A DNA stretch of 64,000 nucleotides from Streptomyces luomodiensis (GTDB taxonomy: Bacteria; Actinomycetota; Actinomycetes; Streptomycetales; Streptomycetaceae). Location of the stretch: the NCBI RefSeq assembly GCF_031679605.1, contig NZ_CP117522.1, positions 8,432,001 through 8,496,000 of the forward strand, written 5' to 3'. Below are positions 11,041 through 64,000 of the stretch, piece by piece. The position numbers and the translations under genes were made by a program. Within the stretch, counting starts at the first letter, position 1; each line of letters starts with the position of its first letter. Below the pieces are notes generated by a model that was not told the origin of the DNA, did not search any database, and worked only from the letters and a program-made list of their open reading frames with translations.

Positions 11041-11072
11041 CCGGGGCGGGCGGCGGAGTCGGCCCGCCCCGG
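11041..11072 (-). terminator. 11-bp hairpin between dehydrogenase and otnK
   Basis: CCGGGGCGGGC (11041-11051) pairs with GCCCGCCCCGG (11062-11072) around a 10-nt loop, just past the dehydrogenase stop and before otnK. As both genes run the same way, it may be a partial terminator or an mRNA-stabilising hairpin. Confidence 0.6.
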
Positions 11073-11082
11073 AGCGGGTGGG

Positions 11083-12171: not shown

Positions 12172-12220
12172 GGTGCGGGTTCCTCTCAGAACAGGGTGGT
12201 GGGCGGTCGGGAGGGACGGA

Positions 12221-22960: not shown

Positions 22961-23805
22961 CGGAACGCCTCGATGTGGTCGGCGGCCCACTCCCGGTACG
23001 ACCGCGGCGGCCGGCCCAGGACTTCCGCCACCGCCCCGTCGACCCGCACCAGGCTCTCGTCGGTGTTGCGCAGCATGGTCAGCATCGCGTCGGCGACCGC
23101 CGGCGGGTAGTGCAGCCGCTCCACCATCGCCGCCCGAGCCACCGCCTCCGGGAGTTCCTCGAACGCCACCGGCTCGCCGAGCAGGCCGGACAGCACGGCC
23201 ACCTGCTCGGCGACCGTGATCACCTCGCCGCCGGTCAGCGTGTGCACCCGGGACCGGTGCGGGGCCGGGTCCGCCAGCACCCGGGCGGCCACCGCGCCCA
23301 CGTCCCGGGGATCCACCGCCGAACTGCGGAAGTCCCTGCCGAAGGCCCGCACCACCCGCTCGGCGCGCACCGACGGTGCCCACGGCAGCGTGTTGGACAT
23401 GAACGTGCCGCCGCGCAGCACCGTCCAGTCCAGGCCGGAGCCCTGGACCGCCGCCTCCGCCGCCAGGTTCGCCTGCTTGATGGCGCTGTCCCGCGCGCTG
23501 CCGGCCCGGATCGAGGACAGCAGCACCACATGCCGCACGCCCGCGTCGCGCACCGCGTCCACGATCGGCCCGGCCTGCGGTATCCCGGGCAGCACCAGGA
23601 GCAGGAACGCCCGGTCCACGCCGTCCAGCGCGGGACCCAGCGAGCCGGGGTCCGTCAGATCGCCGGTGACGACATCCACCGCCGTGGCCCAGCGCCGGGC
23701 GCCCTCGGGGTTCCGGGTGAGCACCCGGACCTTCTCTCCACGTTCCAGCAGCCGGTCGACGACCTCGCCGCCCACGGCCCCGGTAGCACCGGTCACCAAG
23801 ATCAC
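22957..23805 (-). CDS. NmrA-like NAD(P)-dependent reductase
   Basis: An atypical short-chain dehydrogenase of the NmrA/QOR2 type, 282 residues. The dinucleotide motif VTGATGAVGGEVV is at 4-16, NADP-type Arg at VRVLTRNPEG, and LLSSIRAGS follows. The classical YxxxK is not obvious: the usual Tyr-x3-Lys position reads RDSAIKQ, where only Lys is kept. It may therefore be a quinone/enone reductase or a redox sensor rather than a standard SDR. The start is GTG at 23803-23805 with AGGAGG at 23815-23820, directly after the DAHP synthase stop. It shares an operon with the monooxygenase, suggesting reduction of an oxidised aryl intermediate. Confidence 0.84.
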   Translation of the reverse strand: MILVTGATGAVGGEVVDRLLERGEKVRVLTRNPEGARRWATAVDVVTGDLTDPGSLGPALDGVDRAFLLLVLPGIPQAGPIVDAVRDAGVRHVVLLSSIRAGSARDSAIKQANLAAEAAVQGSGLDWTVLRGGTFMSNTLPWAPSVRAERVVRAFGRDFRSSAVDPRDVGAVAARVLADPAPHRSRVHTLTGGEVITVAEQVAVLSGLLGEPVAFEELPEAVARAAMVERLHYPPAVADAMLTMLRNTDESLVRVDGAVAEVLGRPPRSYREWAADHIEAFR

Positions 23806-28062: not shown

Positions 28063-31000
28063 TCAGCCCAGCTTCTCCAGCCACCCCAGCAGCGCCTCCG
28101 CGGTGTCCGCCACCTCGTCGGTCAGCACCGTGAAGTGATCGCCCGCCACCTCGATCAGGTCGTGCGGCAGCGGCCACGACGCCTGCCAGCCGTCCTGTCC
28201 GGCCATCTCCGGCGTGGGGCGGCCGGCCCGCAGGAACAGCGTCGGCGTGGTGACCGCGTGCGGTGTCCAGCCGGCGAACATCCGCAGGTAGGCACCCATC
28301 GCCAGCAGCGCGGCGTCGTCCGGCGCGCCCTCCTCCACCGCGGCCCGCGCGGGCAGCCCGAGCAGCCACTCCTGGGCCCGCGCGGCGCCGTCCAGCGGAT
28401 AGGTGTCGATCAGTACCAGCCCCCGCGGCCCGCGGCCCAGCCGCTCCAGCTCGCCCGTGACGGCGTGCGCCACGGTGCCGCCCAGGGACCGGCCCACCAG
28501 CACGTACGGCTCGTCGCCGACGTGGTCGAGTACGGCCCGCGCGTGCATGCCGACCAGCGTCTCACGGTCCTCCGGTACGGCCTGACCGGTGCCGAAGCCG
28601 GGGTAGGGCAGCACCGCGCCGTCCAGGACCCCCTCCAGCCGACGGCCCAACGCGTCGTACTCGTGCGGGGTGGCCGCCGGAGTCACCGCCGGCACGCAGA
28701 CCACCCTCGGCCGCCGCGGACCGGTCGACAGCGTCACCGGCCGCACGGCGTGCTCCGCGCTGTCGCGGCCCGAGAAGGTCGGCACCGACCAGGACGCACC
28801 GACCAGCATCTGGGTCGCCGCCTCGATCCGACCGTCCCGGTACAGCCGCTCGTACAGCGTGGCCACCGTGTAGGCCGACGACCGCGGTGAACGCCCGGCC
28901 GCCAGCCGCTCCCGCACGTGGTCGGCGAGCGCGGTGGCCGTCGGGTGGTCGAACACCACGGTCGCGGACAGCCGCAGCCCGGTGGCGGACGCCAGCCGGT
29001 TCCGCAGCTCGACCGCGGTCAGCGAGTCGAAGCCGAACTCCCGGAAGTCCCGCTCGGGATCGACCGCGCCGGCGTCGCCGTGCCCCAGCACCTCGGCGAC
29101 CTGCTCGCACACCAGCTCCAGCGCCGACCCGGGGTCGACCACGGGCGGCGCCGCGATCGCGGCGCGCCGGGCGGTCGGCCGGGGCCGTCGGACCAGGTCC
29201 CGCAGCGCCTCCGGCACCGACTCCAGCCGGCCCAGTGTCCCGACGTCCAGCTTCACCGGCACCAGCACCGCCTCACCGGAGCCGACCGCCGCGTCGAAGA
29301 GCGCCAGCCCTTCGGCGTCCGACAGCGGCCGGAGCCCGTTGCGGGTCAGCCGGTCGTGGTCGGCTTGGGTGAGGTGGCGGGTCATGCCGGTGGTGCGGTC
29401 CCAGGCGCCCCAGGCGAGCGAGGTACCGGGCAGGCCGTGGCGGCGACGATGGGTGATCAGGGCGTCGAGAAAGGCGTTGGCGGCGGCGTAGTTGGCCTGG
29501 CCGGCGCTGCCGAGGGTGCCGGCGATCGACGAGAAGACCACGAAGAGGGTCAGGCCGTGATCGCGGGTGAGTTCGTGCAACCACCAGGCGGCGTCGGCTT
29601 TGGGTGCGAACGTGGTGGTCAGCGCGTCGGGGTCGAGGCGGTCGAGGGTGGTGTCGGCGAGGGCGCCGGCGGTGTGGATGATGCCGGTGAGGGGGCCGAT
29701 GTCGTCGATGAGTGTGGCGAGGGCGGTGCGGTTGGTGAGGTCGCAGGAGCGGACGCGGACGTGGGCGCCGAGGTCGGTGAGTTCGGTGGTGAGTTCGGTG
29801 GTGCCGTCCGCGTCGGGTCCTTGGCGGCTGGCCAGGACCAGGTCGCGGACGCCGTGTTCGGCGACCAGGTGACGGGCGACCAGTGAGCCCAGTCCGCCGG
29901 TGCCGCCGGTGATCAGCACGGGGCCCGAGGAGAGGTCGGGCCGTTCGTCGGGGGACGCCCCGGCGTCCACCGGCCCGCGTGTCAGTCGGGGGAGGGTGAT
30001 GGCGCCGTCGCGGATGCGGGCCTGGGGTTCGCCGGAGGCGATGACGGCGGGCAGGGCCTTGTGGGAGGCGGGGTGGTGGTCGGTGTCGATGAGGATGATG
30101 CGGTTGGGGTGTTCGGTTTGGGCGGTGCGGAGTAGTCCCCAGACGGCTGCGCCGGCGAGGTCGTCGTGGGTGGCTTCGACGACGAGGGGGGTGGTGGTGT
30201 TCTGGGCCAGGTGGTGTTGGACGTGGGCCAGGGTTTCGGTGGTGATGCGGTGGGTGTCGGCCAGGACGTCGTCGCCGACCGTCGGCACCGCGTACCGCTC
30301 GAACTCCGGGGCGACCTCGGGGCCGGTGAGCGGCGCGGGACGCCAGGCCAGTCGGTAGAGGTGCCGGCTGGACGGGGCGGTGGGGGCGGCGTGGCGCCGG
30401 GTGGCGAGGTGGTCGATGGTGATGACGGGCTGGCCGGTGGTGTCGGTGGCCAGCAGGCGGATGGCGCCGGTGTCGTCGATGTCCAGTCGGACTCGCAGGT
30501 GGGTGGCGCCGGTGGCGTGGACGGTGACACCGGAGAAGGAGAACGGCAGGTGGACGTCGCCGTCCTCGTCTTGTGCGGCGATCACCGCGGCGGGGTGGAG
30601 GGCGGCGTCGAGGAGTGCGGGGTGTAGGGGGTGGCCGGTGGTGGTGCCTGCGGTGGTGGGGAGTTGGATGTCGGCGTAGAGGGTGTTGTGGTGGTGGTGG
30701 AGGGTGCGGAGTCCTTGGAAGGCGGGGCCGTAGTGGAGTCCGGTGTTGGCGAGTTGTTGGTAGGCGTTGGTGAGGTCGATGGGGTGGGCGTCGGCTGGTG
30801 GTCGGGTGTCGTGTGGTGTGGGTGTGGGGGTGGGTGGGGTGTGGCGGCTGAGGGTGCCGGTGGCGTGGCGGGTCCAGGTGCCGTTGGTGTGGCGGCTGTG
30901 GAGGGCGAGGGGGCGGTGGCCGGTGGTGGTTTCGGGGCCTACGGTGATTTGGATGGGGGTGGGGTGGGTGAGGGTGAGGGGGGTGTGGATGACGAGTTCG

Positions 31001-33897: not shown

Positions 33898-33908
33898 CGT
33901 CGTACCCC

Positions 33909-36900
33909 TCAGGCTCCGGTTCCGTCCATCACGTGCCGGATCAGCGCCTCGGTGTCCATGGCGTCGATCAGGTCGTCCTCGTCGTGCTCGGCCGTGTCCG
34001 GTGCCTGCGCCGGGTCAGGACCGGCCAGCTTCAGCAGCGCCTCCAGCACGCCGGCGTCGCGGAACCGGGCGACCGGCACCTGCGCCAGGACCCGGCGCAG
34101 CTCCCGCTCGTCCGGGTCGTCGTCGGGTCCGGCGGCCGTCGGGGCGGGCGAGACCTGGTCCAGCAGGTACCGCGTGACAGCGCCGGCCGCCGGGTAGTCG
34201 AAGACGAGCGTGGCGGGCAGCCGGAGCCCGGTCATCGCCGACAGCCGGTTGCGGAACTCCACGGCGGTCAGGGAGTCGAAGCCGAGACTCTTGAACGCCT
34301 GGTCCGGCTCGATGGCGCCGGGGTCCGGATGCCCGAGCACCTGGGCGACCTGCTCGATCACCGACGCCAGCACCGACCGCTCCCGGCCCTCCGGGGCCAG
34401 CGCCGCGATCCGTTCCGTCCACGGTTCGGCCCCGTCGGCGCCCGCCCCGGCGGCCTGCCGGCGTGGCGCGCGCACCAGCCCACGCAGCAGGACCGGCACC
34501 GCGCCGGAGCGGCCGATGGCGGGCAGATCGAACGTGGCCGTCACCACCTGCCCGACGTCCGCGGCCAGCGCGCCGTCGAAGAGCTCCAGCCCCTGCTCAT
34601 CGGTGAGCGACCGCAGACCCGCACGGGCCAGCCGGTCGTGGTCCGCGCGGGTGAGGTGGCGGGTCATACCGCTGGCGCGTTCCCACGAACCCCAGGCCAG
34701 CGAGGTGCCGGGCAGGCCCAGACCGCGGCGGTGGGTGACCAGGCCGTCGAGGAACCCGTTGGCCGCCGCGTAGTTGGCCTGGCCGGCGCTGCCGAGCACG
34801 CCGGCCAGCGAGGAGAAGACCACGAAGAGGGTCAGGTCCTGGTCGCGGGTGAGTTCGTGCAACCACCAGGCGGCGTCGGCTTTGGGTGCGAAGGTGGTGG
34901 TCAGTGCGTCGGCGTCGAGGTGGTCGAGGGTGGTGTCGGCGAGGGCTCCGGCGGTGTGGATGATGCCGGTGAGGGGGCCGATGTCGTCGATGAGTGTGGC
35001 GAGGGCGGTGCGGTCGGTGAGGTCGCAGGAGCGGACGCGGACGCGGGCGCCGTGGTGTTGGAGTTCGGTGGTGAGTTCGGTGGCGCCGTCCGCGTCGGGT
35101 CCTTGGCGGCTGGCCAGGACCAGGTCGCGGGCGCCGTGTTCGGTGACGAGATGGCGGGCGATGAGGGAGCCGAGGCTCCCGGTGCCGCCGGTGATCAGCA
35201 CGGTTCCTTCGCCGATCGTCACCGGCTCGGTGGGAGCGACCACGGTCAGCCGGGGGACGGTGATGGCGCCGTCGCGGATACGGGCCTGGGGTTCGCCGGA
35301 GGCGATCAGGGTGGGGAGGGCCTTGTGGGAGGCGGGGTGGTGGTCGGTGTCGATGAGGATGATGCGGTTGGGGTGTTCGGTTTGGGCGGTGCGGAGTAGT
35401 CCCCAGACGGCTGCGCCGGCGAGGTCGTCGTGGGTGGCTTCGACGACGAGGGGGGTGGTGGTGTCGTGGGCCAGGTGGTGTTGGACGTGGGCCAGGGTCT
35501 CTGCGGTGATGCGGTGGGTGTCGGCCAGGACGTCGTCCCCGACCGTCGGTACGGTGTACCGCTCGAACTCCACGGCGCCACCGGACCCGCCCGCACCGGT
35601 CCAGGCGGTCCACTCCGGCCGGTACAGCGGCCCGGAGCGCGCACTCGCCGAACGCAACTGCTCGGGGCTGATCACCCGGCTCGCCAGGGACTCGACCGTC
35701 ACCACCGGCTGGCCGGCCGGGTCGAACGCCCGCAGGCTCGCGGAGCCCGACGCGTCCCATTCCAGCTCGACCCGGAGGCGGGGGGCGCCGGTGGCGTGGA
35801 TCCGCACGCCGGTCCAGGCGAAGGGCAGCCGGATCTCGTCCCCGTCGGAGACCGCGACCAGCGCGTGCAGGGCCGCGTCGAACAGCGCGGGGTGGATGCC
35901 GTAGCCGTCGGTGTCGCCGGCGTCCTCGGGGAGGTGGACGTCGGCGAGGAGTCGGTTGTCTTGGCGCCAGAGGGCTTGGAGGCCCTGGAAGGCGGGGCCG
36001 TATTCCAGTCCGGTGGTGGCGAGGTGGTGGTATGCCCCGTCCAGGTCGATGGGTTCGGCGTTGGTGGGGGGCCAGGTGGCTTCGGGGGTGGGGGGTGTGG
36101 TGTGGGTGCGGGTGAGGGTGCCGGTGGCGTGGGCGGTCCAGGGGGCGTCCGGGCTGGTGCGGGTGTGGATGGTGAGGGTGCGGGTGGTGGTGTCGTCCGG
36201 TGGGTTGATGGTGATCTGGATGGTGGTGGGGTGGGTGAGGGTGATGGGGGTGTGGATGATGAGTTCGTCGAGGGTGGTGTGGTGGGTGTGGTCGCCGGCG
36301 TGGAGGGCCATGTCGACCAGTGCGGTGCCGGGGAGGAGTGGGATGCCGTTGACGGCGTGGTCGGCGGTCCAGGGGTGGTGGGCCGGGTTGAGATGCCCGG
36401 TGAGGATGGTGGCCCCGGTTTCCGCGAGCGTGGTGGTCGCGGAGACGAGCGGATGCGGGGTCGGGACGAGTCCGAGCTGGGTGGCGTCCTGGGGGCCGGC
36501 CACGGTTTTGTCGTTGAGCCAGTAGCGGGTGTGTTGGAAGGGGTAGGTGGGGAGGGGGATGGTGGTGGCTGGTGGGATGAGGGTGTGCCAGGTGATGGGG
36601 TGGCCGTGGGTGTGGGCGTGGCCGAGTGCGGTGAGGAAGGCGTGGGTGTCGTCTTGGTTGTTGTGGAGGGTGTGGATGGTGGTGGTGTTGGGGTTGGTTT
36701 CTTGGATGCTGGGGGTGAGGGTTGGGTGGGGGCTGGTTTCGATGTAGGTGGTGTAGCCGTTGTGGGTGAGGTGTTCGATGGCGGGTTGGAAGAGGACGGG
36801 TTGGCGGAGGTTGCGGTACCAGTAGTCGGCGTTGAGGGTGGGGGTGGTGATCCAGGTGTTGTCGGTGGTGGAGTAGAGGGGGGTGGTGGGTGTTTGGGGG

Positions 36901-44195: not shown

Positions 44196-44268
44196 CGGTG
44201 CTCAGCTCCATACGTGAACCGGAAGGACGGGGACCGCGCGGACGCTCTTCGGGGCGGTCCGTCGAAGA

Positions 44269-50200: not shown

Positions 50201-50532
50201 CCGAAGAACGCCGGGTCGAACCCGGTGGCGTCCTTCAGGAAGCCACCCTCGCGCATGTACGAGGTGCCCTCCTGGGCCGGGTCGGAGCCGAAGAAGCCCT
50301 CCAGATCCCAGCCTCGGTCGTCCGGGAAGCCGGAGATGGCGTCGGTGCCGGACGCCACCAGCTCCCACAATGCCTCCGGTGAGGTCACGCCGCCGGGGAA
50401 GCGGCAGGCCATGCCGATGATCGCGATCGGCTCGGCGGACGCGGACTCGACCTCGGCGAGCCGCTCACGGGTCCGGTAGAGATCCGCCGTGACCCGCTTC
50501 AGGTAGTCGGCCAGGGTCTTCGAATCAGCCAT
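44269..50532 (-). CDS. Type I PKS, module 3 (KS-AT-DH-ER-KR-ACP)
   Basis: Fully reducing single-module synthase of 2087 residues. After the docking coil ([20 protein letters not shown]) come KS (Cys206), AT (Ser650 in [15 protein letters not shown] at 753-756), DH (His954, [10 protein letters not shown]), ER (NADPH motif GTGGVG from residue 1483), KR (Tyr1804) and ACP (Ser1969). It should add a fully saturated, alpha-branched two-carbon unit. The AT signature is neither malonyl HAFH nor classical YASH; the wider sequence is of the branched-extender (methylmalonyl-like) kind. The C-terminus ([16 protein letters not shown]) is a docking segment matching the coil of the next protein. It lies 38 bp after the module 1-2 gene. 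Confidence 0.94.
47812..49089. repeat. Near-identical AT-DH block, copy in module 3
   Basis: Second copy of the 1278-bp block found at 36504-37781. It ends abruptly where the KS-AT linker sequences diverge (after the shared [14 protein letters not shown] segment). A third, shorter copy lies at 59148-60200. Confidence 0.85.
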
Positions 50533-50570
50533 GCGGTATCAACCTTTGAGGATGAGGGCGAGCCGAGCGG

Positions 50571-53500: not shown

Positions 53501-56500
53501 CGTCGTCCGTGGTGCTGAGGGCGGCGGGGTGGAGGGCGGCGTCGAGGAGTGCGGGGTGTAGGGGGTGGCCGGTGGTGGTGCCTGCGGCGGTGGGCAGTTC
53601 GATGTCGGCGTAGAGGGTGTTGTGGTGGTGGTGGAGGGTGCGGAGTCCTTGGAAGGCGGGGCCGTAGTGGAGTCCGGTGTCGGCGAGTTGTTGGTAGGCG
53701 TTGGTGAGGTCGATGGGGTGGGCGTCGGCTGGTGGTCGGGTGTCGTGTGGTGTGGGTGTGGGGGTGGGTGGGGTGTGGCGGCTGAGGGTGCCGGTGGCGT
53801 GGCGGGTCCAGGTGCCGTTGGTGTGGCGGCTGTGGAGGGTGAGGGGGCGGTGGCCGGTGGTGGTTTCGGGGCCTACGGTGATTTGGATGGGGGTGGGGTG
53901 GGTGAGGGTGATGGGGGTGTGGATGACGAGTTCGTCGAGGGTGGTGTGGTCGGTTTCGTCGCCGGCTTGGATGGCCATGTCGAGGAGTGCTGTGCCGGGG
54001 ACGATGACGGTGTTGCCGACTGTGTGGTCGGTGAGCCAGGGGTGGGTGGTGGTGGAGAGTCGGCCGGTGAGGATGAGTTCGCCGGTGTCGGCCACGGTGG
54101 TCATGGCGCCCAGGAGGGGGTGGTTCGTTGTGTCCAGGCCGGCTCCGGTCACCTCGGTGCCCCCGACGGCGGCATCGTGCAGCCAGAACCGTTCGCGCTG
54201 GAACGGGTAGGTCGGCAGCTCCACGCGTCGGCCCCGGGGGACCACGGCGGACCAGTCGAGCTCCACACCGCTGGCGTGGAGCTGCCCGGCGGCGGTGAGC
54301 ACGCTGTGGACTTCGTTGTGGTTGCGGCGGGTGGTGGGGATGAGGTGGGTGGTGGTGGGGAGGGTGGTGCGGGCGAGGGTGGTGAGGGTGGCGTCGGGGC
54401 CGATTTCGAGGTAGGTGGTGATGCGGTGGTGGTGGTGGAGGTGGTGGAGGGTGTCGGTGTAGCGGACGGGTGCGGTGATGTGGTGGGTCCAGTGGGTGGT
54501 GTCGGGGTGGGTGGGTGTTGCGGTGAGCATGCTGATGAGGGGTGTGTGTGGGGGGTGGTGGGTGAGGGTGTTGAGGGTGGTGGTGAAGGGGGTGAGGATG
54601 GGTTGCATGAGGGGGGAGTGGAAGGCGTGGCTGACGTTGAGCCAGTTGGTTTTGACGTTGAGTTGGGTGGCGATGTGGTGGAGGGTGGTGTGGTCGCCGG
54701 AGAGGACGGTGGTGTGGGGGCCGTTGATGGCGGCGATGGAGATGGTGTTTTTGTGGGCGGTGAGGTGGGGTTGGAGGGTGTGGGGGTCGGTGGCGATGGC
54801 GAGCATGGCGCCGCCGGGTGGGAGGTTTTGCATGAGGGTGGCGCGTGTGGTGATGAGGTGGATGGCGTCGGGGAGGGTGAGGGCGCCGGTGATGTGGGCG
54901 GCGGTGATTTCTCCGAGGGAGTGGCCGCAGACGGCGTCGGGTTGGAGGCCCCAGGTTTGCCAGAGTCGGTAGAGGGCGGTTTCGAAGGCGAAGAGGGCGA
55001 TTTGTGCGTGGTCGGTGCGGTGGAGTGTGTCGGCTTGGTCGGGGTTGAACATGACGTCGCGTAGTTCGGGGCCGGTGAGTTCGAGGATGTCGTCCAGTGC
55101 TTCGGCGAAGGCGGGGAAGTGTTCGTAGAGTTGTCGGCCCATGCCGGGGCGTTGGGAGCCCTGTCCGGTGAACATCACCGCCAGCGGCCCGCCGTCCCCG
55201 GTGCCCGGCGTCAGGTCGGCCAGCCCGGCTGTGAAGTCCTGCACCGTCTCCCCGACGACCACCGCGCGGTGCGGCAGGACCGCCCGGGTGGTGATGAGTG
55301 AGTGCGCCACATCATGGACGGACACCTCCTCGCCCTCGACCAGCGCCGCCAGCCGCTGTGCCGACTCCCGCAGGGCGGGTTCGGTGTGTGCGGAGAGTAT
55401 CCAGGGCACGGGTCCGGTCGGGGGTGTGTGTGAGGTGTCGGGTTCTGGTGTGGTGGGTTCTGGTGTGGTGGGGGCTTGTTCGAGGATGACGTGGGCGTTG
55501 GTGCCGCTGACGCCGAAGGAGGAGATGCCTGCGCGGCGGGGGTGGTGGTCGGTGGTGGGCCAGTCGCGGGGTTCGGTGAGGAGTTCGACGGTGCCGGCGG
55601 TCCAGTCGACTTCGGGGGTCGGTTCGTCGATGTGCAGGGTTTTGGGCATCACGCCGTGGCGCATGGCCATGACGGTTTTGATGATGCCAGCCACTCCTGC
55701 GGCGGCTTGGGTGTGGCCGATGTTGGATTTCAGGGAGCCCATCCACAGCGGTTGGTCGCGGTGTTGTCCGTAGGTGGCGATGAGGGCTTGGGCTTCGATC
55801 GGGTCGCCGAGTTTGGTGCCGGTGCCGTGGGCTTCGATGAGGTCGACGTCGGTGGGGGTGAGGTGGGCGTTGGTGAGGGCGTCGCGGATGACGCGTTGTT
55901 GGGAGGGGCCGTTGGGGGCGGTGAGGCCGTTGGAGGCGCCGTCCTGGTTGACGGCGGTGCCGCGTACCACGGCGAGTATCGGGTGGCCGAGGCGTTGTGC
56001 GTCGGAGAGTCGTTCGATGAGGAGGAGGCCGATGCCTTCGGCCATGCCGAAGCCGTTGGCGTTGGCGGCGAAGGCTTTGCAGCGGCCGTCGTCGGCGAGG
56101 CCGCGTTGTCGGCTGAACTCGATGAACGGTGTCACCGATCCCAGGACGGTGACGCCGCCGGTGACGGCGAGGGTGCACTCCCCGGAGCGCAGTGCCTGGA
56201 CCGCGAGGTGCAGGGCGACCAGGGAGGAGGAGCAGGCGGTGTCCAGGGAGACGGCCGGGCCCTCGAAGCCGAAGGTGTACGAGACCCGGCCCGAGGCCAC
56301 GCTCGCCGCGCTGCCGTTGGCCACGTAGCCTTCGAGCTCGGCCGGCGCGCTGCCTCGCAGGGCGACGTAATTGCTGGCCATGATGCCGGTGAAGACGCCG
56401 GTGCGGCTGCCGCGCAGTGAGGTGGGGTCGATACCGGCGCGTTCCAGAAGCTCCCAAGTGGCCTCCAGCAGCAGCCGCTGCTGCGGGTCCATGGCCAGCG

Positions 56501-59500
56501 CCTCACGCGGGGAGATGCCGAACGCGTCCGGGTCGAAGTCGCCGGCGCTGTCCAGGAAGCCACCGTGGCGGGTGTAGGTGGTGCCGGGGTGGTCCGGGTC
56601 GGGGTCGTACAGGCTGTCCAGGTCCCAGCCACGGTCGGTGGGGAATGTGGTGATGGCGTCGCCGCCGGTGCTGATCAGGCGCCACAGGTCCTCGGGGGAG
56701 TCGACGCCGCCGGGCAGCCGGCAGGCCATCCCCACGATCGCGATCGGCTCCGCGTCTCCGGCCACGGCGGCCCTCGGCCGGGCGGTGTCCGCTGCCGAGC
56801 CGAGCAGCAGACCGGCCGCCGCCGCGCAGGTGGGGTAGTCGAAGATCAGTGTGGCCGGCAGCCGCAGTCCCGTCGCCGCCGACAGCCGGTTGCGGAACTC
56901 CACGGCGGTCAGGGAGTCGAACCCGAGGTCCTTGAAGACCTGACGCGCTCCGATCGCGGTGGCGTCGGCATGCCCGAGTACGGCCGCGGCCTGCTCCCGG
57001 ACCATGTCGACGGCCACCCGCTCTCGCTCCTGCCGCGTCATCCCGGCCAGCCGGTCGCGCCAGGTCCCGGCGGCCTCGTCGCTGCTCGCGGTCGCCCGGG
57101 GCCTGCGCACCAGGCCGCGCAACACGGTCGGTGTCACCGGTGCGGCGCGGAGCGCCACCAGGTCGAACGCGGCCGTGACCACGCTCCCGGCGTCCGTGGC
57201 CAGCGCGGCGTCGAACAGGGCCAGCCCCTCGGTGTCGGCCAGCGGCCGGAGCCCGTCGCGGGCCAGTCGGTCGTGGTCCGCGCGAGTGAGGTGGCGGGTC
57301 AGACCGGTGGTGCGTTCCCACGAGCCCCAGGCCAGAGAGGTACCGGGGAGACCGTGGCGGCGACGGTGGGTGATCAGACCGTCGAGGAAGCTGTTGGCGG
57401 CGGCGTAGTTGGCCTGCCCCGCGTTGCCGAGCACACCGGCGACCGACGAGAAGACCACGAACATGGCCAAGCCGTGATCCAAGGTCAGCTCGTGCAACCA
57501 CCAGGCGGCGTCGGCCTTCGGTGCGAACGTGGTGGCCAGCGCGTCGGCGTCCAGGCGGTCGACGGTGGCGTCGGCCAGCACCCCGGCCGTGTGCACCACG
57601 CCCGTCAGCGGACCGACCTCGTTGACGAGTGTGGCGAGGGCGGTGCGGTCGGTGAGGTCGCAGGAGCGGACGCGGACGTGGGCGCCGAGGTCGGTGAGTT
57701 CGGTGGTGAGTTCGGTGGCGCCGTCCGCGTCGGGTCCTTGGCGGCTGGCCAGGACCAGGTCGCGGACGCCGTGTTCGGCGACCAGGTGACGGGCGACCAG
57801 TGAGCCCAGACCGCCGGTGCCGCCGGTGATCAGCACGGGGCCCGAGGAGAGGTCGGGGCGCTCGTCGGGGGACGCCCCGGCGTCCACCGGCCCGCGTGTC
57901 AGCCGGGGGAGGGTGATGGCGCCGTCGCGGATGCGGGCCTGGGGTTCGCCGGAGGCGATCAGGGTGGGGAGTGCCTTGTGGGAGGCGGGGTGGTGGTCGG
58001 TGTCGACCAGCACGATGCGGTCGGGGTGTTCGGTTTGGGCGGTGCGGAGCAGTCCCCAGACGGCTGCGCCGGCGAGGTCGTCGTGGGTGGCTTCGACGAC
58101 GAGGGGGGTGGTGGTGTCGTGGGCCAGGTGGTGTTGGACGTGGGCCAGGGTTTCGGTGGTGATGCGGTGGGTGTCGGCGACCACGTCGTCGCCGACCGTC
58201 GGCACCACGTACCGCTCGAACTCCGCCGTGACGGCGCTCGCGTCCAGCGGGCGGGCGACCCATGCCAGGTCGTAGAGCTGGTGGGCGCCGGTGCTCCCGG
58301 CACGGAGCTGGTCCGCATCCACCGGCCGTGTCACCAGAGAGTCGATCGAGACGACGGGCTGTCCCGTGGTGTCCCGCGCCAACAACCGGATCGCGCCGTC
58401 GTCGTCGATGTCCAGCTCGACCCGCAGCCTGGTCGCTCCGGTGGCGTGGAGGGTGACGCCGGTCCAGGCGAAGGGGAGTCGGGTGTCGGTGTGGTTCTGC
58501 GCGACGGTGGCGGCGTGGAGGGCGGCGTCGAGGAGTGCGGGGTGGATGCCGTAGCCGTCGGTGTCGCCGGCGTTGTCGGTGAGGTGGACGTCGGCGAGGA
58601 GTCGGTTGTCTTGGCGCCAGAGGGCTTGGAGGCCTTGGAAGGCGGGGCCGTATTCCAGTCCGGTGGTGGCGAGGTGGTGGTATGTCCCGTCCAGGTCGAT
58701 GGGTTCGGCGTTGGTGGGGGGCCAGGTGGTGTGGGGGGTGGGGGGTGTGGTGTGGGTGCGGGTGAGGGTGCCGGTGGCGTGTTGGGTCCAGGGTTGGTCG
58801 GGGTCGGTGCGGGTGTGGATGGTGAGCGTGTGGGTGTTGTCGTTGTGGGTGGGGGTGGTGGTGATCTGGATGGTGGTGGGGTGGGTGAGGGTGATGGGGG
58901 TGTGGATGATGAGTTCGTCGAGGGTGGTGTGGTGGGTGTGGTCGCCGGCGTGGAGGGCCATGTCGACCAGTGCGGTGCCGGGGAGGAGTGGGGTGCCGTT
59001 GACGGCGTGGTCGGCGGTCCAGGGGTGGTGGGCCGGGTCGAGGTGCCCGGTGAAGATGGTGGCGCCGGTGTCGGCGACCGTTGTGGTGGCGCCGAGCAGT
59101 GCGTGGTCGGCCTGGCTCAGACCGGCGCTTTCCACCTGTGCGTCAGCGGTTTTGTCGTTGAGCCAGTAGCGGGTGTGTTGGAAGGGGTAGGTGGGGAGGG
59201 GGATGGTGGTGGCTGGTGGGATGAGGGTGTGCCAGGTGATGGGGTGGCCGTGGGTGTGGGCGTGGCCGAGTGCGGTGAGGAAGGCGTGGGTGTCGTCTTG
59301 GTTGTTGTGGAGGGTGTGGATGGTGGTGGTGTTGGGGTTGGTTTCTTGGATGCTGGGGGTGAGGGTTGGGTGGGGGCTGGTTTCGATGTAGGTGGTGTAG
59401 CCGTTGTGGGTGAGGTGTTCGATGGCGGGTTGGAAGAGGACGGGTTGGCGGAGGTTGCGGTACCAGTAGTCGGCGTTGAGGGTGGGGGTGGTGATCCAGG

Positions 59501-62500
59501 TGTTGTCGGTGGTGGAGTAGAGGGGTGTGGTGGGTGTTTGGGGGGTGATGGGGGCGAGGATTTCTTGGAGTTGGTGGTGGAGTTGGTCGATGTGGCCGGA
59601 GTGGCCGGCGAAGTCGACGCTGGGGAGTTGCCAGCGCATGATGTGGTGGTGGGCGAGTTGTTTGGTGAGGTGGTTGATGGCTTGGGGGTCGCCGGTGATG
59701 GTGGTGTTGTTGGGTGCGTTGTGGGCGGCGATCCAGATGCGGGTGTTCCAGTGGTCGGGGTTGGTGATGTTGCGGATTTTTTCGGGTGGTGCGAGGACGC
59801 TGATCATGGTGCCGTGGCCGGTGAGGGGGAGGAGTGCTTTGCTGCGGAGGGTGGTGATGCGGGCGGCGTCTTGGAGGGTGAGGGCTCCGGCGGTGTAGGC
59901 GGCGGCGATTTCGCCTTGGGAGTGGCCGATGATGGCGTCGGGGGTGAGGCCGTGGTGTTTCCAGAGGGTGGCGAGGGCGACCATGGTGGTGAAGAGGACG
60001 GGTTGGATGACGTCGACGCGGTTCCAGGTGGGGGCGTGGGGTTGTTGGGTGAGGATGTCGGTGACGGACCAGTCGATGTGTTCGGAGAGGGCGGTGTCGA
60101 TTTCGTGGATGGTGTCGCGGTAGAGGGGTGAGGTTTCCCAGAGGCGTTGTCCCATGCCGATCCATTGGGAGCCTTGGCCGGGGAAGACGAGGACGGTTTT
60201 CCCGCCGTCGGGAGTGTGTCCGGTGATCTGTTCCAGGGCGGTGGCGAATTCTTCGCGAGTGGAGCCGACGACCACGGCACGGTGCGGCAGCCCGGCCCGC
60301 GTGCTGATCAATGAATGGGCGATGTCCCGCACCGAGCCGTCCACGGTGGCCAGTTGACGCGCCAGGTCTTTGAGTGCGGCCTCGTTGTGCGCGGAGAGCA
60401 CCCACGGCACCGGACCGGACGGTTCCAGCACAAGTTCGGCGGGCTCGGAAGGCCCGGCGGGCTCGGTGGGCTCCGCCGGTTCGGGTACGGGCGGCGCCTG
60501 TTCGAGGATGACATGCGCGTTGGTGCCGCTCACGCCGAACGACGACACCCCCGCGCGCCGGGGACGTTCCTCCGAGCCCGGCCAGTCCCGGGCCTGGGCC
60601 AGCAGTTCGACGGCACCCGCCGACCAGTCGACCTCCGGAGTCGGCTCGTCGATGTGCAGGCTCTTGGGCATCATCCCGTGCCGCATCGACAGGACCGCCT
60701 TCATCACACCGGCGACCCCGGCGGCGGCCTGGGTGTGGCCGATGTTCGACTTCAGCGACCCGAGCCACACCGGCCGGTCACGGTCCTGCCCGTACGTCGC
60801 CAGCACCGCCTGCGCTTCGATCGGGTCGCCGAGTTTGGTGCCGGTGCCGTGGGCTTCGATGAGGTCGATGTCGGTGGGGGTGAGGTGGGCGTTGGTGAGG
60901 GCGTCGCGGATGACGCGTTGTTGGGAGGGGCCGTTGGGGGCGGTGAGGCCGTTGGAGGCGCCGTCCTGGTTGACGGCGGTGCCGCGTACCACGGCGAGTA
61001 TCGGGTGGCCGAGGCGTTGGGCGTCGGAGAGTCGTTCGATGAGGAGGACTCCGGCGCCTTCGGACCAGGCGGCGCCGTCGGCGGTGGCGGCGAAGGATTT
61101 GCAGCGTCCGTCGGGGGAGAGGCCGCGTTGGCGGCTGAACTCGATGTAGGAGGAGGGGGAGGCCATGACGGTGACGCCGCCGGCGACGGCGAGGGTGCAT
61201 TCGCCGGAGCGCAGTGCCTGGACCGCCAGGTGCAGGGCGACCAGGGAGGAGGAGCAGGCGGTGTCGACCGACACGGACGGTCCCTCGAACCCGAACGTGT
61301 ACGACACCCGGCCCGACACCACGCTCCCCGAGCCACCACTGCTCAGGTAGCCCTCCAGCTCCGGCGGCACGGTCCGCAGGCGCGAGATGTAGTCGTGGTA
61401 CATGACGCCGGCGAAGACGCCGGTGCGGCTGCCGCGGAGTGAGGTGGGGGCGATGCCGGCGCGTTCCAGGACCTCCCAGGTGGTCTCCAGCAGCAGCCGC
61501 TGCTGCGGGTCCATGGCCAGTGCCTCGCGGGGGGAGATGCCGAACAGGGCGGCGTCGAAGTCGCCCGCGTCGTGCAGGAAGCCGCCTTCGCGGATGTAGG
61601 AGGTGCCGGGGTGGTCCGGGTCGGGGTGGTAGAGGTGATCCAGGTCCCAGCCACGATCGGTCGGGAAGCCGGAGATGGCGTCGCCCCCGGAGGACAACAG
61701 GTCCCACAGCCCCTCGGGCGAGGTCACGCCGCCCGGCAGCCGGCAGGCCATGCCGACGATCGCGATCGGCTCACCGGATGGAGCGGCGGCGTCCGCGGGC
61801 TCCGTGTCGGGGCCCGCCGCGGACGCGTCGCCGAACAGGCGGCCGTTGAGGTAGGCCGCCAACGCGTCGGGGTTGGGGTAGTCGAAGGCGAGCGTGGCGG
61901 GCAGCGCCAGCCCGGTCGCCGCCGTCAGCCGACCGCGCAGCTCCACGGCGCTGGTCGACGTCATGCCGATGTCGCGGAACGACTGCCGGCCGTGCACCGG
62001 CCGGCCGCCGGTGATCACGCCGACCTCGGACAGCACCAGGTCGAGCAGGGCCCGGTCGCGCTCCGCCTCGGGGAGCCGGGCCAGCCGCCCGGCGGCGCCG
62101 GTGTCCACGGCCGATGCGGCCAGCTCGTGCCGCATCGCCAGCACCGACGCGTCGTCCACCGTGGTCGCCGCGTCGAACAGGGCGAGCCTCTCCCGGGGCG
62201 TCAGCTCCTCGCGCGGCCCCCAGCCGAGGGCCAGTGCGGGCAGTCCCCGGGCGTGCCGACGGTTGGCCACCGCCTGGAAGACCGCGTGCGCCGGACCGTT
62301 GTCGATCGGTGCGGACAGCACGAACAGCGACGGGGGCGCCTCCCGGGTGAGCTCGTCCAGGGCCAGCGCGTCCTGGAGCGGGCCGAGTTCGACCTCGCCG
62401 GCGAGCGTGGTCGGCAGCGTCTCGGGACCGGCCACCTGGAGCACGGCCGTGATCGGCGGCCCGGCCGCCCGGAACGCCGCCGCCAGCGATGCCCGGTCGC

Positions 62501-64000
62501 CGGGCTCGCGGACCAACTGGGTCACGGTCGCGCCCAGTTCGGTCAGACGGGCGGCCAAGTCCGGTACGGCCGTGCGGGCGAGCAGCCGCACATGCCGTAC
62601 GCCGTACGCGGCGACCAGGTGCCCGGCGAGCTCGGCGGCCTGCTCCTGGTCCGCGCCGGAGACCAGCACGGTGCCGTCCGGGTCCGGCCGGCTCACCCGC
62701 TGCCCGCTCCCCGCACGGGCCAGCCGGGGAACCAGCACCTCGCCGCCGCGTACCAGCGCCCGCGGCTGCCCGGACACCAGGGCGGCCGACACGGCGGCGG
62801 TCGCCTCGCCGCCGTCGGCGTCCACCAGCACCAGCGCGTCGTCCGGCACGTCCGCCCGCATGGACTCCACCAGTCCCCAGGCCGCGGCCTGCGCCGGGTC
62901 GCGGTCCACGCCGTGGGTCAGCACGGCGACCCGGCCGGACTGGTCGGCCAGCCCGGCCCGCACCGCGCGCAGCACGTCGTCCAGGGAGCCGGACGGGCAG
63001 TCCACGACCGCCGCCCCGGGCGCGTCGGGGTCCGCCGGCGCGTCGGGCAATGCTGGGCGGCGCGGCAGGGTCGGCGCGTTGGACACTGCCGGGTGGTTCG
63101 GCAGAGTCGGCGCGTTGGACACTGCCAGCCGGTCCGGCAGAGTCGGCGCGTCGGGCAGGTCCGGGGCCCCGGGGCGGGTGGGGGTCTCCGGCAGGTCCGG
63201 GACGCCGAGCGGCTCGGCAGCGTTCCGCAGGCTCGGCGCGTCCGTCGGTTTGGCGGTGTTCCGCGGGCTCGGCGCGTCCGTCGGTTTGGCGGTGTTCCGC
63301 GGGCTCGGCGCGTCCGTCGGTTTGGCGGTGTTCCGCGGGCTCGGCGCGTCCGTCGGTTTGGCGGTGTTCCGCGGGCTCGGCGCGTCCGTCGGTTTGGCGG
63401 TGTTCCGCGGGCTCGGCGCGTCCGTCGGCTCGGTGGCGTCCCGTAGGCCCGGCGCGTCCGTCGGCGCGGTCGAGTCCGGGCCCTCCGAGAGGGCCGGCGT
63501 GTCCGGGTCCTCCGAGAGGGCCGGCGTGTCCGGTCCGTCCGCTGGGGCTGGACGGCCGTCGGTGAGCGGCGTGTCGCCGTCCGCGGGCGCCACGCCGCCC
63601 TCGGACCGGTGCGCGGAGCCCGCCTGGCCGCCGTCGCCCGGTCCGGTGTCCGTCGACAGCGGCGTCCACTCCACGCGGAACAGCGACTCGAACGACCCGG
63701 CGCTCACCGCCCGCAGCCGGGCCGGGCTCTGCTCCAGCGCGTGCCGCTTGATCTTCCCGGACCCGGTGCGCGGTATCGAACCGATCTCGTACAGCTCCTC
63801 CGGCACCTTGAAGTACGCCAGGTGCTCGCGGCAGGCGGCGAACACCTGGTCCGGGTCGAAGCCGTCCGCGGCCGGTACGAGGTAGGCGACCGGCACCTCA
63901 CCGAGGGCGGGGCGGGCCGAGCCGACGACCGCCGCGTCGGCCACGCCCGGTACGCGCAGCAGCACCTGCTCCACCTCGGTCGGGTGGATGTTCTCCCCGC
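50571..64000 (-). CDS. Type I PKS, loading module plus modules 1 and 2 (5' end off the window)
   Basis: The first synthase; its start lies beyond base 64000, as the frame continues to the edge reading GENIHPTEVEQ. Over 4470 residues are seen. Loading part: C-terminal subdomain of a CoA-ligase with the catalytic Lys segment RTGSGKIKRHAL, a repeat-rich linker, a degenerate KR-like domain and an ACP (Ser codon 61956-61958). Module 1: KS (Cys codon 61254-61256), FAGH-type AT (Ser 59919-59921), DH, KR, ACP. Module 2: KS (Cys 56232-56234), malonyl AT (HAFH 54618-54629), DH (HTVGN variant), ER (GTGGVG 52413-52430), KR, ACP (Ser 50961-50963). The C-terminus (ASESELLSFIDKEFGRA) is a docking helix fitting the module 3 protein. 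Confidence 0.94.
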   Translation of the reverse strand, partial: GENIHPTEVEQVLLRVPGVADAAVVGSARPALGEVPVAYLVPAADGFDPDQVFAACREHLAYFKVPEELYEIGSIPRTGSGKIKRHALEQSPARLRAVSAGSFESLFRVEWTPLSTDTGPGDGGQAGSAHRSEGGVAPADGDTPLTDGRPAPADGPDTPALSEDPDTPALSEGPDSTAPTDAPGLRDATEPTDAPSPRNTAKPTDAPSPRNTAKPTDAPSPRNTAKPTDAPSPRNTAKPTDAPSPRNTAKPTDAPSLRNAAEPLGVPDLPETPTRPGAPDLPDAPTLPDRLAVSNAPTLPNHPAVSNAPTLPRRPALPDAPADPDAPGAAVVDCPSGSLDDVLRAVRAGLADQSGRVAVLTHGVDRDPAQAAAWGLVESMRADVPDDALVLVDADGGEATAAVSAALVSGQPRALVRGGEVLVPRLARAGSGQRVSRPDPDGTVLVSGADQEQAAELAGHLVAAYGVRHVRLLARTAVPDLAARLTELGATVTQLVREPGDRASLAAAFRAAGPPITAVLQVAGPETLPTTLAGEVELGPLQDALALDELTREAPPSLFVLSAPIDNGPAHAVFQAVANRRHARGLPALALGWGPREELTPRERLALFDAATTVDDASVLAMRHELAASAVDTGAAGRLARLPEAERDRALLDLVLSEVGVITGGRPVHGRQSFRDIGMTSTSAVELRGRLTAATGLALPATLAFDYPNPDALAAYLNGRLFGDASAAGPDTEPADAAAPSGEPIAIVGMACRLPGGVTSPEGLWDLLSSGGDAISGFPTDRGWDLDHLYHPDPDHPGTSYIREGGFLHDAGDFDAALFGISPREALAMDPQQRLLLETTWEVLERAGIAPTSLRGSRTGVFAGVMYHDYISRLRTVPPELEGYLSSGGSGSVVSGRVSYTFGFEGPSVSVDTACSSSLVALHLAVQALRSGECTLAVAGGVTVMASPSSYIEFSRQRGLSPDGRCKSFAATADGAAWSEGAGVLLIERLSDAQRLGHPILAVVRGTAVNQDGASNGLTAPNGPSQQRVIRDALTNAHLTPTDIDLIEAHGTGTKLGDPIEAQAVLATYGQDRDRPVWLGSLKSNIGHTQAAAGVAGVMKAVLSMRHGMMPKSLHIDEPTPEVDWSAGAVELLAQARDWPGSEERPRRAGVSSFGVSGTNAHVILEQAPPVPEPAEPTEPAGPSEPAELVLEPSGPVPWVLSAHNEAALKDLARQLATVDGSVRDIAHSLISTRAGLPHRAVVVGSTREEFATALEQITGHTPDGGKTVLVFPGQGSQWIGMGQRLWETSPLYRDTIHEIDTALSEHIDWSVTDILTQQPHAPTWNRVDVIQPVLFTTMVALATLWKHHGLTPDAIIGHSQGEIAAAYTAGALTLQDAARITTLRSKALLPLTGHGTMISVLAPPEKIRNITNPDHWNTRIWIAAHNAPNNTTITGDPQAINHLTKQLAHHHIMRWQLPSVDFAGHSGHIDQLHHQLQEILAPITPQTPTTPLYSTTDNTWITTPTLNADYWYRNLRQPVLFQPAIEHLTHNGYTTYIETSPHPTLTPSIQETNPNTTTIHTLHNNQDDTHAFLTALGHAHTHGHPITWHTLIPPATTIPLPTYPFQHTRYWLNDKTADAQVESAGLSQADHALLGATTTVADTGATIFTGHLDPAHHPWTADHAVNGTPLLPGTALVDMALHAGDHTHHTTLDELIIHTPITLTHPTTIQITTTPTHNDNTHTLTIHTRTDPDQPWTQHATGTLTRTHTTPPTPHTTWPPTNAEPIDLDGTYHHLATTGLEYGPAFQGLQALWRQDNRLLADVHLTDNAGDTDGYGIHPALLDAALHAATVAQNHTDTRLPFAWTGVTLHATGATRLRVELDIDDDGAIRLLARDTTGQPVVSIDSLVTRPVDADQLRAGSTGAHQLYDLAWVARPLDASAVTAEFERYVVPTVGDDVVADTHRITTETLAHVQHHLAHDTTTPLVVEATHDDLAGAAVWGLLRTAQTEHPDRIVLVDTDHHPASHKALPTLIASGEPQARIRDGAITLPRLTRGPVDAGASPDERPDLSSGPVLITGGTGGLGSLVARHLVAEHGVRDLVLASRQGPDADGATELTTELTDLGAHVRVRSCDLTDRTALATLVNEVGPLTGVVHTAGVLADATVDRLDADALATTFAPKADAAWWLHELTLDHGLAMFVVFSSVAGVLGNAGQANYAAANSFLDGLITHRRRHGLPGTSLAWGSWERTTGLTRHLTRADHDRLARDGLRPLADTEGLALFDAALATDAGSVVTAAFDLVALRAAPVTPTVLRGLVRRPRATASSDEAAGTWRDRLAGMTRQERERVAVDMVREQAAAVLGHADATAIGARQVFKDLGFDSLTAVEFRNRLSAATGLRLPATLIFDYPTCAAAAGLLLGSAADTARPRAAVAGDAEPIAIVGMACRLPGGVDSPEDLWRLISTGGDAITTFPTDRGWDLDSLYDPDPDHPGTTYTRHGGFLDSAGDFDPDAFGISPREALAMDPQQRLLLEATWELLERAGIDPTSLRGSRTGVFTGIMASNYVALRGSAPAELEGYVANGSAASVASGRVSYTFGFEGPAVSLDTACSSSLVALHLAVQALRSGECTLAVTGGVTVLGSVTPFIEFSRQRGLADDGRCKAFAANANGFGMAEGIGLLLIERLSDAQRLGHPILAVVRGTAVNQDGASNGLTAPNGPSQQRVIRDALTNAHLTPTDVDLIEAHGTGTKLGDPIEAQALIATYGQHRDQPLWMGSLKSNIGHTQAAAGVAGIIKTVMAMRHGVMPKTLHIDEPTPEVDWTAGTVELLTEPRDWPTTDHHPRRAGISSFGVSGTNAHVILEQAPTTPEPTTPEPDTSHTPPTGPVPWILSAHTEPALRESAQRLAALVEGEEVSVHDVAHSLITTRAVLPHRAVVVGETVQDFTAGLADLTPGTGDGGPLAVMFTGQGSQRPGMGRQLYEHFPAFAEALDDILELTGPELRDVMFNPDQADTLHRTDHAQIALFAFETALYRLWQTWGLQPDAVCGHSLGEITAAHITGALTLPDAIHLITTRATLMQNLPPGGAMLAIATDPHTLQPHLTAHKNTISIAAINGPHTTVLSGDHTTLHHIATQLNVKTNWLNVSHAFHSPLMQPILTPFTTTLNTLTHHPPHTPLISMLTATPTHPDTTHWTHHITAPVRYTDTLHHLHHHHRITTYLEIGPDATLTTLARTTLPTTTHLIPTTRRNHNEVHSVLTAAGQLHASGVELDWSAVVPRGRRVELPTYPFQRERFWLHDAAVGGTEVTGAGLDTTNHPLLGAMTTVADTGELILTGRLSTTTHPWLTDHTVGNTVIVPGTALLDMAIQAGDETDHTTLDELVIHTPITLTHPTPIQITVGPETTTGHRPLTLHSRHTNGTWTRHATGTLSRHTPPTPTPTPHDTRPPADAHPIDLTNAYQQLADTGLHYGPAFQGLRTLHHHHNTLYADIELPTAAGTTTGHPLHPALLDAALHPAALSTTDDGIPRLPFSWTGVTVHATGATHLRVRLDIDDTGAIRLLATDTTGQPVITIDSLVTRPLAVEHLRGTRPGTDDLYGLGWVPYTPAVSATGPEFERYVVPTVGDDVVADTHRITTEALARVQHHLAQNTTTPLVVEASHDDLAGAAVWGLLRTAQTEHPNRIVLIDTDHHPASREILPALVASGEPQARIIDGTVTVPRLTTTAATEALTPPADTDAWHLDTSEHGTLENLTLIPTDTPTRNLLPGEVRIAVRAAGLNFRDVLIALGMYPGEATMGSEAAGIVLDVGPDITDLTPGDRVTGLFPNALTNTAIADRRMVTPIPAGWSHTQAAAFPIVFLTAYYALHDLAALKPGERVLIHAGTGGVGTAAIQLAQHLGAEVFATASPAKWPHLRAMGLDDDHIATSRTLDFENTFRTTTHGHGIHVILNSLTDDLIDASLRLLTPGGRFIEMGKTDLRDPAEVARAHPGVTYRAFDIADDAGPDRIGAMLVELTGLFERGALRSLPVRCWDVREAVDAFRFMAQAHHVGKVVLTIPHTPDGTVLITGGTGSLGSLIARHLVTEHGVRDLVLTSRQGPDADGATELTTALEQHGARVRVRSCDLTDRTALAALIDDIGPLTGVIHTAGTLADTTIDRLDPDALTTTFAPKADAAWWLHELTRSHDLALFVVFSSVAGVLGNAGQANYAAANSFLDALVTHRRRQGLPGTSLAWGWWQREGGMTAHLTQADHDRMTRAGIHGLTDDEGTALFDTALGHGLGTVAPVKLHLPTLNRTDTVPAVLRGLVHAVRPAAREATAPAENWADRISALAPEERDRAVLDLVRQQAARVLGHSDADRINPSQAFKDTGFDSLTAVEFRNRITTATGLRLPATLVFDHPTPDALTGHLLAQLGPLDDGGSSSPEMLRELERFERQLFDNRPDDETGTAIAVRLRSILARLDAPSTAPAAAAGGDQVLDRLADASESELLSFIDKEFGRASN
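50850..56755 (-). other. PKS module 2 (KS-AT-DH-ER-KR-ACP, malonyl)
   Basis: From the KS start ([19 protein letters not shown]) to the ACP end; KR Tyr codon 51456-51458. It should add a fully reduced, unbranched CH2-CH2 unit. Its AT-DH is collinear and nearly identical with module 6, while its ER-KR resembles module 3, so the module looks like a mosaic. Confidence 0.85.
53524..55192. repeat. Malonyl AT-DH block, copy in module 2
   Basis: Partner of 30590-32258. The divergent island here is 54188-54295 and has the same length as in module 6, so the reading frame and spacing are kept. Confidence 0.8.
56800..61775 (-). other. PKS module 1 (KS-AT-DH-KR-ACP, FAGH-type AT)
   Basis: From the KS start ([19 protein letters not shown]) to the ACP end. 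DH His codon is 59007-59009 ([10 protein letters not shown]) and KR Tyr codon 57405-57407, with B-type Leu-Ala-Asp. It should give an alpha-branched aryl-alkene directly on the starter. The AT-DH stretch 59148-60200 is close to identical with modules 3 and 5. Confidence 0.85.
59148..60200. repeat. Near-identical AT block, copy in module 1
   Basis: About 1050 bp matching modules 3 and 5 with few differences (for example Lys for Gln in LWKHHG, and HHQLQE for HHQLKE). Similarity drops at about 60200, just before the VFPGQGSQ motif of the AT, so this copy is shorter on the KS side. Confidence 0.8.
61780..64000 (-). other. Loading module: CoA-ligase (C-terminal part), degenerate KR-like domain, ACP
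   Basis: The ligase C-terminal subdomain (about 63700-64000) shows the A8-A10 type region and invariant Lys (TGSGKIKR). The next folded domain (about 62130-62990) aligns with KR domains. However, its nucleotide motif is ruined (LVSGADQEQAAEL in place of ITGGTGGLG), and the Tyr site reads PAHAVFQAVANR, so it should not reduce. The ACP reads IGMTSTSAVEL, keeping the Ser but with Thr in place of the usual Asp. Ligase-loading modules with a vestigial reductive domain are known from rapamycin/FK506 (ER). They prime with a carboxylic acid, here probably aromatic. Confidence 0.8.
63241..63420 (-). repeat. Five perfect 36-bp tandem repeats (12-aa linker repeat)
   Basis: Five identical 36-bp units begin at 63241, 63277, 63313, 63349 and 63385, encoding the 12-residue unit KPTDAPSPRNTA in frame. 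Degenerate copies flank them on both sides, and a second 12-residue family (NAPTLPxxxAVS) occupies about 63040-63150. A shorter 9-residue repeat (DPDTPALSE) lies near 63490-63530. All are in the linker between the ligase and KR-like domains. Confidence 0.92.

Follow-up and report, generated by a model that had tools for sequence, protein, structure and literature searches.

Near-identical acyltransferases in a cuevaene-type polyketide cluster of Streptomyces luomodiensis point to a possible role of methoxymalonyl units in ring closure

Cuevaene A (C21H22O5) is built from 3-hydroxybenzoate (3-HBA) and six extender units, and the cuevaenes C-E, for which an NMR table is published, share the constitution of cuevaene A or of its amide (PMC3999817). 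The NMR data place the acid or amide at C1, a double bond at C2=C3, a methoxy group at C4, a methyl group at C6, a vinyl position at C7 and a CH at C8, followed by methylene groups at C9-C11, quaternary carbons at C12 and C13, an oxygen at C15 and a hydroxyl group at C18 (PMC3999817). From this table and the term 'tricyclic core' (PMC3999817), we read a bond between C8 and C13 and an oxygen bridge from C12 to C15.

The locus compared here lies in a window of 64,000 nucleotides, the whole stretch of DNA that was analysed (positions 8432001-8496000 of the 10.04 Mb single-contig genome). Flanks of 20 kb on its left and 40 kb on its right were also fetched, and the ORFs as far as 82.9 kb in window numbering, together with a few left of the cluster, were compared with protein families. 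It contains four PKS genes, all on the minus strand, in the order A (65246-50571), B (50532-44269), C (44195-33909) and D (33897-28063):

50571..64000, continuing beyond the window to about position 65246 of the same numbering, minus strand: PKS A, ligase-type loading module with modules 1 and 2
44269..50532, minus strand: PKS B, module 3 (DH-ER-KR)
33909..44195, minus strand: PKS C, modules 4 and 5 (DH-KR each)
28063..33897, minus strand: PKS D, module 6 (KS-AT-DH-KR-ACP) and thioesterase (TE)

All four reading frames are open and the catalytic motifs are present. By Pfam and motif scans, modules 1, 4, 5 and 6 have the composition KS-AT-DH-KR-ACP and modules 2 and 3 the composition KS-AT-DH-ER-KR-ACP, with a C-terminal TE. 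The catalytic His and Asp motif is kept in all six DH domains. The DH domains of modules 2 and 6 deviate from DHAVxGxxxLP (HxxxGxxxxP); that of module 6 is nonetheless needed for the 2,3-double bond. The loading module carries an AMP-binding C-terminal domain by Pfam, scanned for its in-window part, and an SGTTGRPKG motif; a repeat-rich linker, a stretch resembling a degenerate KR, and an ACP make up the remainder. The linker holds five tandem copies of TDAPSPRNTAK (window about 63248-63464), which are absent from the S. solisilvae relative. The first-pass annotation had described a ligase-type loading module, six modules with these reductive sets and a TE, and the scans bear this out with the sole correction that PKS A exceeds the window; its probable start at 65246 is derived from homology with the start of S. 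solisilvae P0127. The B-type Asp noted earlier in every KR is likewise present, as HTAGxLAD in 6/6 domains. A different order of the PKS genes was considered and rejected in view of the four co-directional genes, the single loading module and the single TE. Matches to the PKS in the plasmid collection are all below 60% identity.

Read out module by module, the assembly line follows the cuevaene chain: module 1 sets C13=C12, module 2 C11H2-C10, module 3 C9H2-C8, module 4 C7=C6(Me), module 5 C5=C4(OMe) and module 6 C3=C2. The C6 methyl group corresponds to AT4 with its YASH motif, the unsubstituted C2 and C10 to AT6 and AT2 with HAFH, and the C4 methoxy group is accounted for, by prediction, by the AT5 motif together with a methoxymalonyl cassette. 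The predicted reductive pattern suits C12=C13, the methylenes C9-C11 and the 2,4,6-triene, and the TE would give the free acid. Since module order, reductive order, chorismatase and methoxymalonyl cassette all match cuevaene A, we file the cluster as cuevaene-type; judged through the published structure and module order rather than cuv gene sequences, this assignment is very probably correct. The link to cuevaene and the colinear chain, both put forward on first inspection, are thus well supported: the order of double bonds, methylenes, methyl, methoxy and acid agrees with published cuevaene A, the skeleton equals the NMR structure carbon by carbon, and the chorismatase comes in addition.

By the CIP rules, a methoxy group on C4 makes the chain-trans isomer '4Z'. 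With 4Z read as chain-trans and all six KRs B-type, no mismatch is left for cuevaene A. In the cuevaene C-E paper, the Asp of KR5 led to the expectation of a trans C4=C5 bond, and the main products were called cis (PMC3999817); our reading from the CIP rules offers an explanation of this mismatch as one of nomenclature. Compound 4, the amide of cuevaene A, is assigned 4Z and shows an NOE from 3-H to 5-H, which fits the chain-trans form (PMC3999817). The text on cis and trans at C4=C5 conflicts with the 4E/4Z assignments of the same paper (PMC3999817).

Starter supply is indicated by two genes, one of them beyond the window:

65506-66594 (window numbering, beyond the window), plus strand: chorismatase, TIGR04444 with 526 bits against a cut-off of 325
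23822..24997, minus strand: class II DAHP synthase, PF01474, with a TIGR01358 match under its cut-off

The chorismatase belongs to the FkbO/Hyg5 family and lies about 1.5 kb past the window end, adjoining the first PKS gene and divergent from PKS A. It is identical in 316/340 aligned residues (92.9%) to PDB 5ag3, which we take to be Hyg5 from Streptomyces hygroscopicus (so also PMC7170507) and whose own entry title is putative pteridine-dependent dioxygenase. In the chorismatase of the present cluster, Cys349 and Glu356 stand seven residues apart, at the positions of the CH-Hyg5 residues; for Nat-Hyg5, PMC7170507 gives Cys318 and Glu325, again seven residues apart. In the alignment, FkbO has Ala at the Cys position. 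The Hyg5 Cys/Glu pair makes 3-hydroxybenzoate the likely starter, as judged from sequence, and the DAHP synthase fits a supply of chorismate through the shikimate pathway. Chorismatase matches occur in 21 of 392 genus genomes drawn, with more than 60% identity only in this genome and one of the same species; among named genomes, close copies are present in Streptomyces sp. S465 (99%), S. endocoffeicus (92%) and S. samsunensis (94%). The first-pass annotation had directed the search for a chorismatase-type starter gene past base 64000, where the Hyg5-type enzyme is found, and had named an AHBA starter pathway as evidence against its proposal. The AHBA starter and an ansamycin product are rejected: among the ORFs scanned round the PKS there is no AHBA gene or amide synthase, and TE and chorismatase are present instead.

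The six AT domains fall into three motif types:

59235..60227, minus strand: AT1, MRW...FAGHS, differing from AT3 in 3 and from AT5 in 2 of 330 residues
54267..55214, minus strand: AT2, HAFH, malonyl type, 92% identical to AT6
47899..48891, minus strand: AT3, MRW...FAGHS, differing from AT5 in 1 of 330 residues
41610-42548, minus strand: AT4, YASH, methylmalonyl type
36591..37583, minus strand: AT5, MRW...FAGHS, methoxymalonyl-ACP type
31324-32265, minus strand: AT6, HAFH, malonyl type

AT1, AT3 and AT5 thus share the motif MRW(6 residues)FAGHS with 1-3 differences in 330 residues. The substituents at modules 1, 3 and 5 had earlier been left undecided; that these three ATs are one near-identical type had not been noted, and the methoxymalonyl cassette lay outside the DNA seen on that first inspection. 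According to PMC4207774, after Haydock et al., MXW ahead of a YASH-type motif distinguishes ATs whose extenders are bound to an ACP; compared with that motif, the spacing from MRW to FAGHS is one residue longer here. The three ATs have Gln in GHSXG, whereas PMC4207774 gives Leu for the methoxymalonyl ATs of FkbA. Methoxymalonyl AT motifs are called poorly defined in PMC7489565.

The best comparison for FAGHS comes from a cluster in another genome, G096. Its gene set comprises an ORF with adenylation motif, a carbamoyltransferase, a P450, a DHQ-synthase-like gene, an O-methyltransferase, a 3HCDH and FkbH, and the seven ATs in three ORFs have the order YASH-FAGH-YASH-YASH-FAGH-HAFH-YASH. In geldanamycin, the methoxy groups set by the PKS come from modules 2 and 5, and the G096 AT order is that of the geldanamycin extenders. 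From gene content and this extender order, we take the G096 cluster to be geldanamycin-type. Among its seven modules, YRW...FAGHS stands at the second and the fifth and is absent at the other 5; as modules 2 and 5 are the geldanamycin methoxy modules, FAGHS, combined with YRW in this case, marks methoxymalonyl in a cluster whose compound type has a known structure. In overall identity to AT5, the FAGH ATs of G096 (49-50%) are no closer than its YASH ATs (equally 49-50%), so that it is the motif that carries the methoxymalonyl argument. The shared motif of AT1, AT3 and AT5 and the G096 pattern together lead to methoxymalonyl being predicted three times, at modules 1, 3 and 5, a prediction we hold with good confidence.

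The distribution of the motif was surveyed in this genome, with 106/108 AT matches typed and two short partial matches (920878, 3573185) left out. MRW...FA[AG]HS occurs in 4/106 typed ATs, the three described here and one with FAAHS beside another FkbH gene, and in 0/87 ATs more than 75 kb from any FkbH gene; since three of the four are AT1, AT3 and AT5 themselves, the genome holds one independent MRW AT. Three further ATs near FkbH have a Trp in another position or context and were left uncounted: AT2 and AT6 (KTNW...HAFHS) and the AT at 9409841 (WVRR...CPTHT). In other genomes, ten FkbH neighbourhoods of 80 kb each contain 45 ATs in all, 5 of them without a readable motif; a hydrophobic-X-Trp pattern is found in 7 ATs, spread over 5/10 neighbourhoods, with none typed in the remaining 5. 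A small PKS at G000:C1:8131110-8147527, beside an FkbH gene, has ATs with YASH, HAFH and FAAHS and resembles the AT set near FkbH in G055.

Conservation can be followed in several relatives. Streptomyces sp. S465 is the same species by genome grouping, with 97-98% DNA identity over the cluster region. MRW...FAGHS is kept in orthologues covering one module each, namely M5 in S. rapamycinicus (P0125), M1 in S. solisilvae (P0127, partial) and M3 in S. malaysiensis (P0145), which are 88-91% identical; P0125 as a PKS is 89% identical to PKS C. In the drafts of S. endocoffeicus and S. samsunensis, AT1, AT3 and AT5 were not found, where module-4 contigs are only about 5.1 kb long and near-identical ATs may be lost in assembly. 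The best AT matches to AT5 in these drafts are 45-50% identical, and, apart from two module-4 copies, the eight that were inspected show YASH motifs of the RAR or RAK type.

Within the present cluster, the AT stretch compared in six windows of 150 bases is 98-100% identical in DNA among modules 1, 3 and 5, and identity outside the AT ranges from 47 to 100%. AT2 and AT6 are 99-100% identical in DNA across most of the AT and again across part of the DH. At four positions this strain departs from S465, and it does so simultaneously in each of the three copies of AT1/3/5. AT-centred identity and concerted changes against S465 are the mark of gene conversion per extender class, and AT1/3/5 as well as AT2/6 look as if they had been homogenised in this way.

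The genes around the PKS supply candidates for tailoring, regulation and export:

18136..20778, plus strand: AfsR/SARP-type regulator (BTAD and AAA_16, Pfam)
20982..21383, minus strand: SnoaL-like small protein of 133 aa, candidate cyclase (PF07366, weak)
21380..22960, minus strand: MhpA-like class A FAD monooxygenase of 526 aa, candidate aryl para-hydroxylase (PF01494; NF004829 with 607 bits against a cut-off of 390)
22957..23805, minus strand: NmrA-like NAD(P)-binding protein (PF13460 91.8 bits, PF05368 82.9 bits)
24997..27843, minus strand: LuxR-family LAL regulator (AAA_16 and GerE)
66652-67155 (window numbering, beyond the window), minus strand: AtaL-family protein (PF08982 with 50 bits against a cut-off of 27; no NCBIfam match)
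67391-68863 (window numbering, beyond the window), plus strand: predicted MFS exporter (family match)
68916-73182 (window numbering, beyond the window), plus strand: methoxymalonyl-ACP cassette (O-methyltransferase, 3HCDH, ACP, acyl-CoA dehydrogenase, FkbH)

Of the three tailoring genes proposed earlier, the MhpA-like and NmrA-like ones are clear; the SnoaL-like assignment is weak and stays below the family cut-off (PF07366, E 0.022, 15 bits against 28.4). Among the ORFs scanned from 11 kb to 82.9 kb in window numbering, no P450 matches and the MhpA-like protein is the only monooxygenase. Its relatives are 95-98% identical in 3/3 other cuv-bearing genomes searched, and the AtaL-like gene lies within DNA that aligns in all three relatives. 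Left of the cluster, window 8549-12243 holds RraA-like, class II aldolase, SBD_N/NBD_C kinase and Iso_dh genes, resembling a small set for acid-sugar catabolism.

AT1 and AT3 are predicted to be of methoxymalonyl type, whereas cuevaene A has no methoxy group at C8 or C12 and keeps only one. We propose the following course. The chorismatase would provide 3-hydroxybenzoate, which the ligase loading module would activate, and the extenders would be methoxymalonyl, malonyl, methoxymalonyl, methylmalonyl, methoxymalonyl and malonyl in this order, before the TE releases the acid. The linear acid predicted from sequence would be 3-hydroxyphenyl-CH=C(OMe)-(CH2)3-CH(OMe)-CH=C(Me)-CH=C(OMe)-CH=CH-COOH, C23H30O6. 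On chemical grounds, the MhpA-like FAD monooxygenase may hydroxylate C15, para to the C18 hydroxyl group. The C8 methoxy group would then depart, aided by the C4-methoxy diene, with the cation spread over C8, C6 and C4, and C13, at which the C12 enol ether is nucleophilic, could attack C8 and close a six-membered ring. Attack of the C15 phenol on C12 with loss of a second methanol would yield the tetrahydrodibenzofuran (benzofuran) of cuevaene A. The SnoaL-like and AtaL-like proteins are candidate catalysts of the cyclisation.

The mass balance of this route closes exactly: C23H30O6 plus one hydroxylation minus two methanols gives C21H22O5 and needs no additional redox step. If just one of modules 1 and 3 took methoxymalonyl, two H would be in excess, and with malonyl at both, four. 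Treating the C8 and C12 methoxy groups as leaving groups thus brings published structure and sequence into agreement. That both leave as methanol, in the order of cyclisation given, is chemical reasoning to which we give an even chance. The same holds for the wider idea of a traceless methoxymalonyl, which could equally be right or wrong: the C4 methoxy would activate, those at C8 and C12 would leave during redox-neutral closure, and gene conversion would keep the three ATs alike. The proposal requires the loss of two of three predicted methoxy groups, and the literature examined contains no such intermediate. A search on methanol loss, methoxymalonyl, cyclization and polyketide gave no match; the idea may already be in print.

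The missing methoxy groups at C8 and C12 of cuevaene A can also be taken at face value. Modules 1 and 3 would then really use malonyl-CoA, through relaxed or mispredicted ATs, and the tricycle would arise by oxidative cyclisation; the poor definition of methoxymalonyl motifs stated in PMC7489565 lends itself to this. We consider it unlikely, as AT5 must supply the C4 methoxy group, yet AT1, AT3 and AT5 differ in at most 3 of 330 residues, and as the chain C21H26O4 after one hydroxylation would still carry 4 H too many, with a single monooxygenase among the ORFs scanned. Conversely, the three methoxy groups that the ATs predict might all be real in the product, which would be a new cuevaene relative, a linear or partly cyclised trimethoxy triene acid with the C8 and/or C12 methoxy retained. 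This appears quite improbable: once two methanols are lost, the predicted chain corresponds exactly to cuevaene A, and both the MhpA-like gene and the AtaL-bearing DNA are kept in all three relatives, none of which is a known producer here.

A silent or decayed cluster without any product is hardly to be expected, with open PKS frames, catalytic motifs in place and the high identity maintained in S465. Taken together, a cuevaene-type cluster that incorporates three methoxymalonyl units and loses two of the methoxy groups is the explanation we favour, with moderate confidence. If true, an uncommon extender unit would have the function of a programmed leaving group and not of decoration; the AT evidence bears specifically on how the cuevaene ring system forms.

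Among known systems, the geldanamycin-type cluster of G096 shares FAGHS ATs, methoxymalonyl genes and ligase-type loading with the present cluster. It differs in having seven ATs, a carbamoyltransferase, a P450 and a DHQ-synthase-like gene, and G096 is not among the 21 genomes with a chorismatase match. A cluster at about 9.36-9.43 Mb of the same genome, which we assign to the FK506/FK520 type, likewise combines a chorismatase with FkbH; this chorismatase is only 43% identical to the present one, and two of the ATs there have GHSLG/HAGHS and no MRW. Its loading ORF carries adenylation, ER and ACP motifs. Hyg5 (PDB 5ag3) has the same Cys and Glu as the chorismatase described here. The closest system is the cuv cluster of Streptomyces sp. 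LZ35, source of cuevaenes A-E, with the same 3-HBA starter, six extenders, chorismatase, C6-methyl/C4-methoxy triene acid and B-type Asp in KR5 (PMC3999817). The cluster class is therefore already known and the finding itself is modest. In contrast to the assembly line described here, the account of the LZ35 cluster mentions neither methoxymalonyl nor three ATs of this type (PMC3999817).
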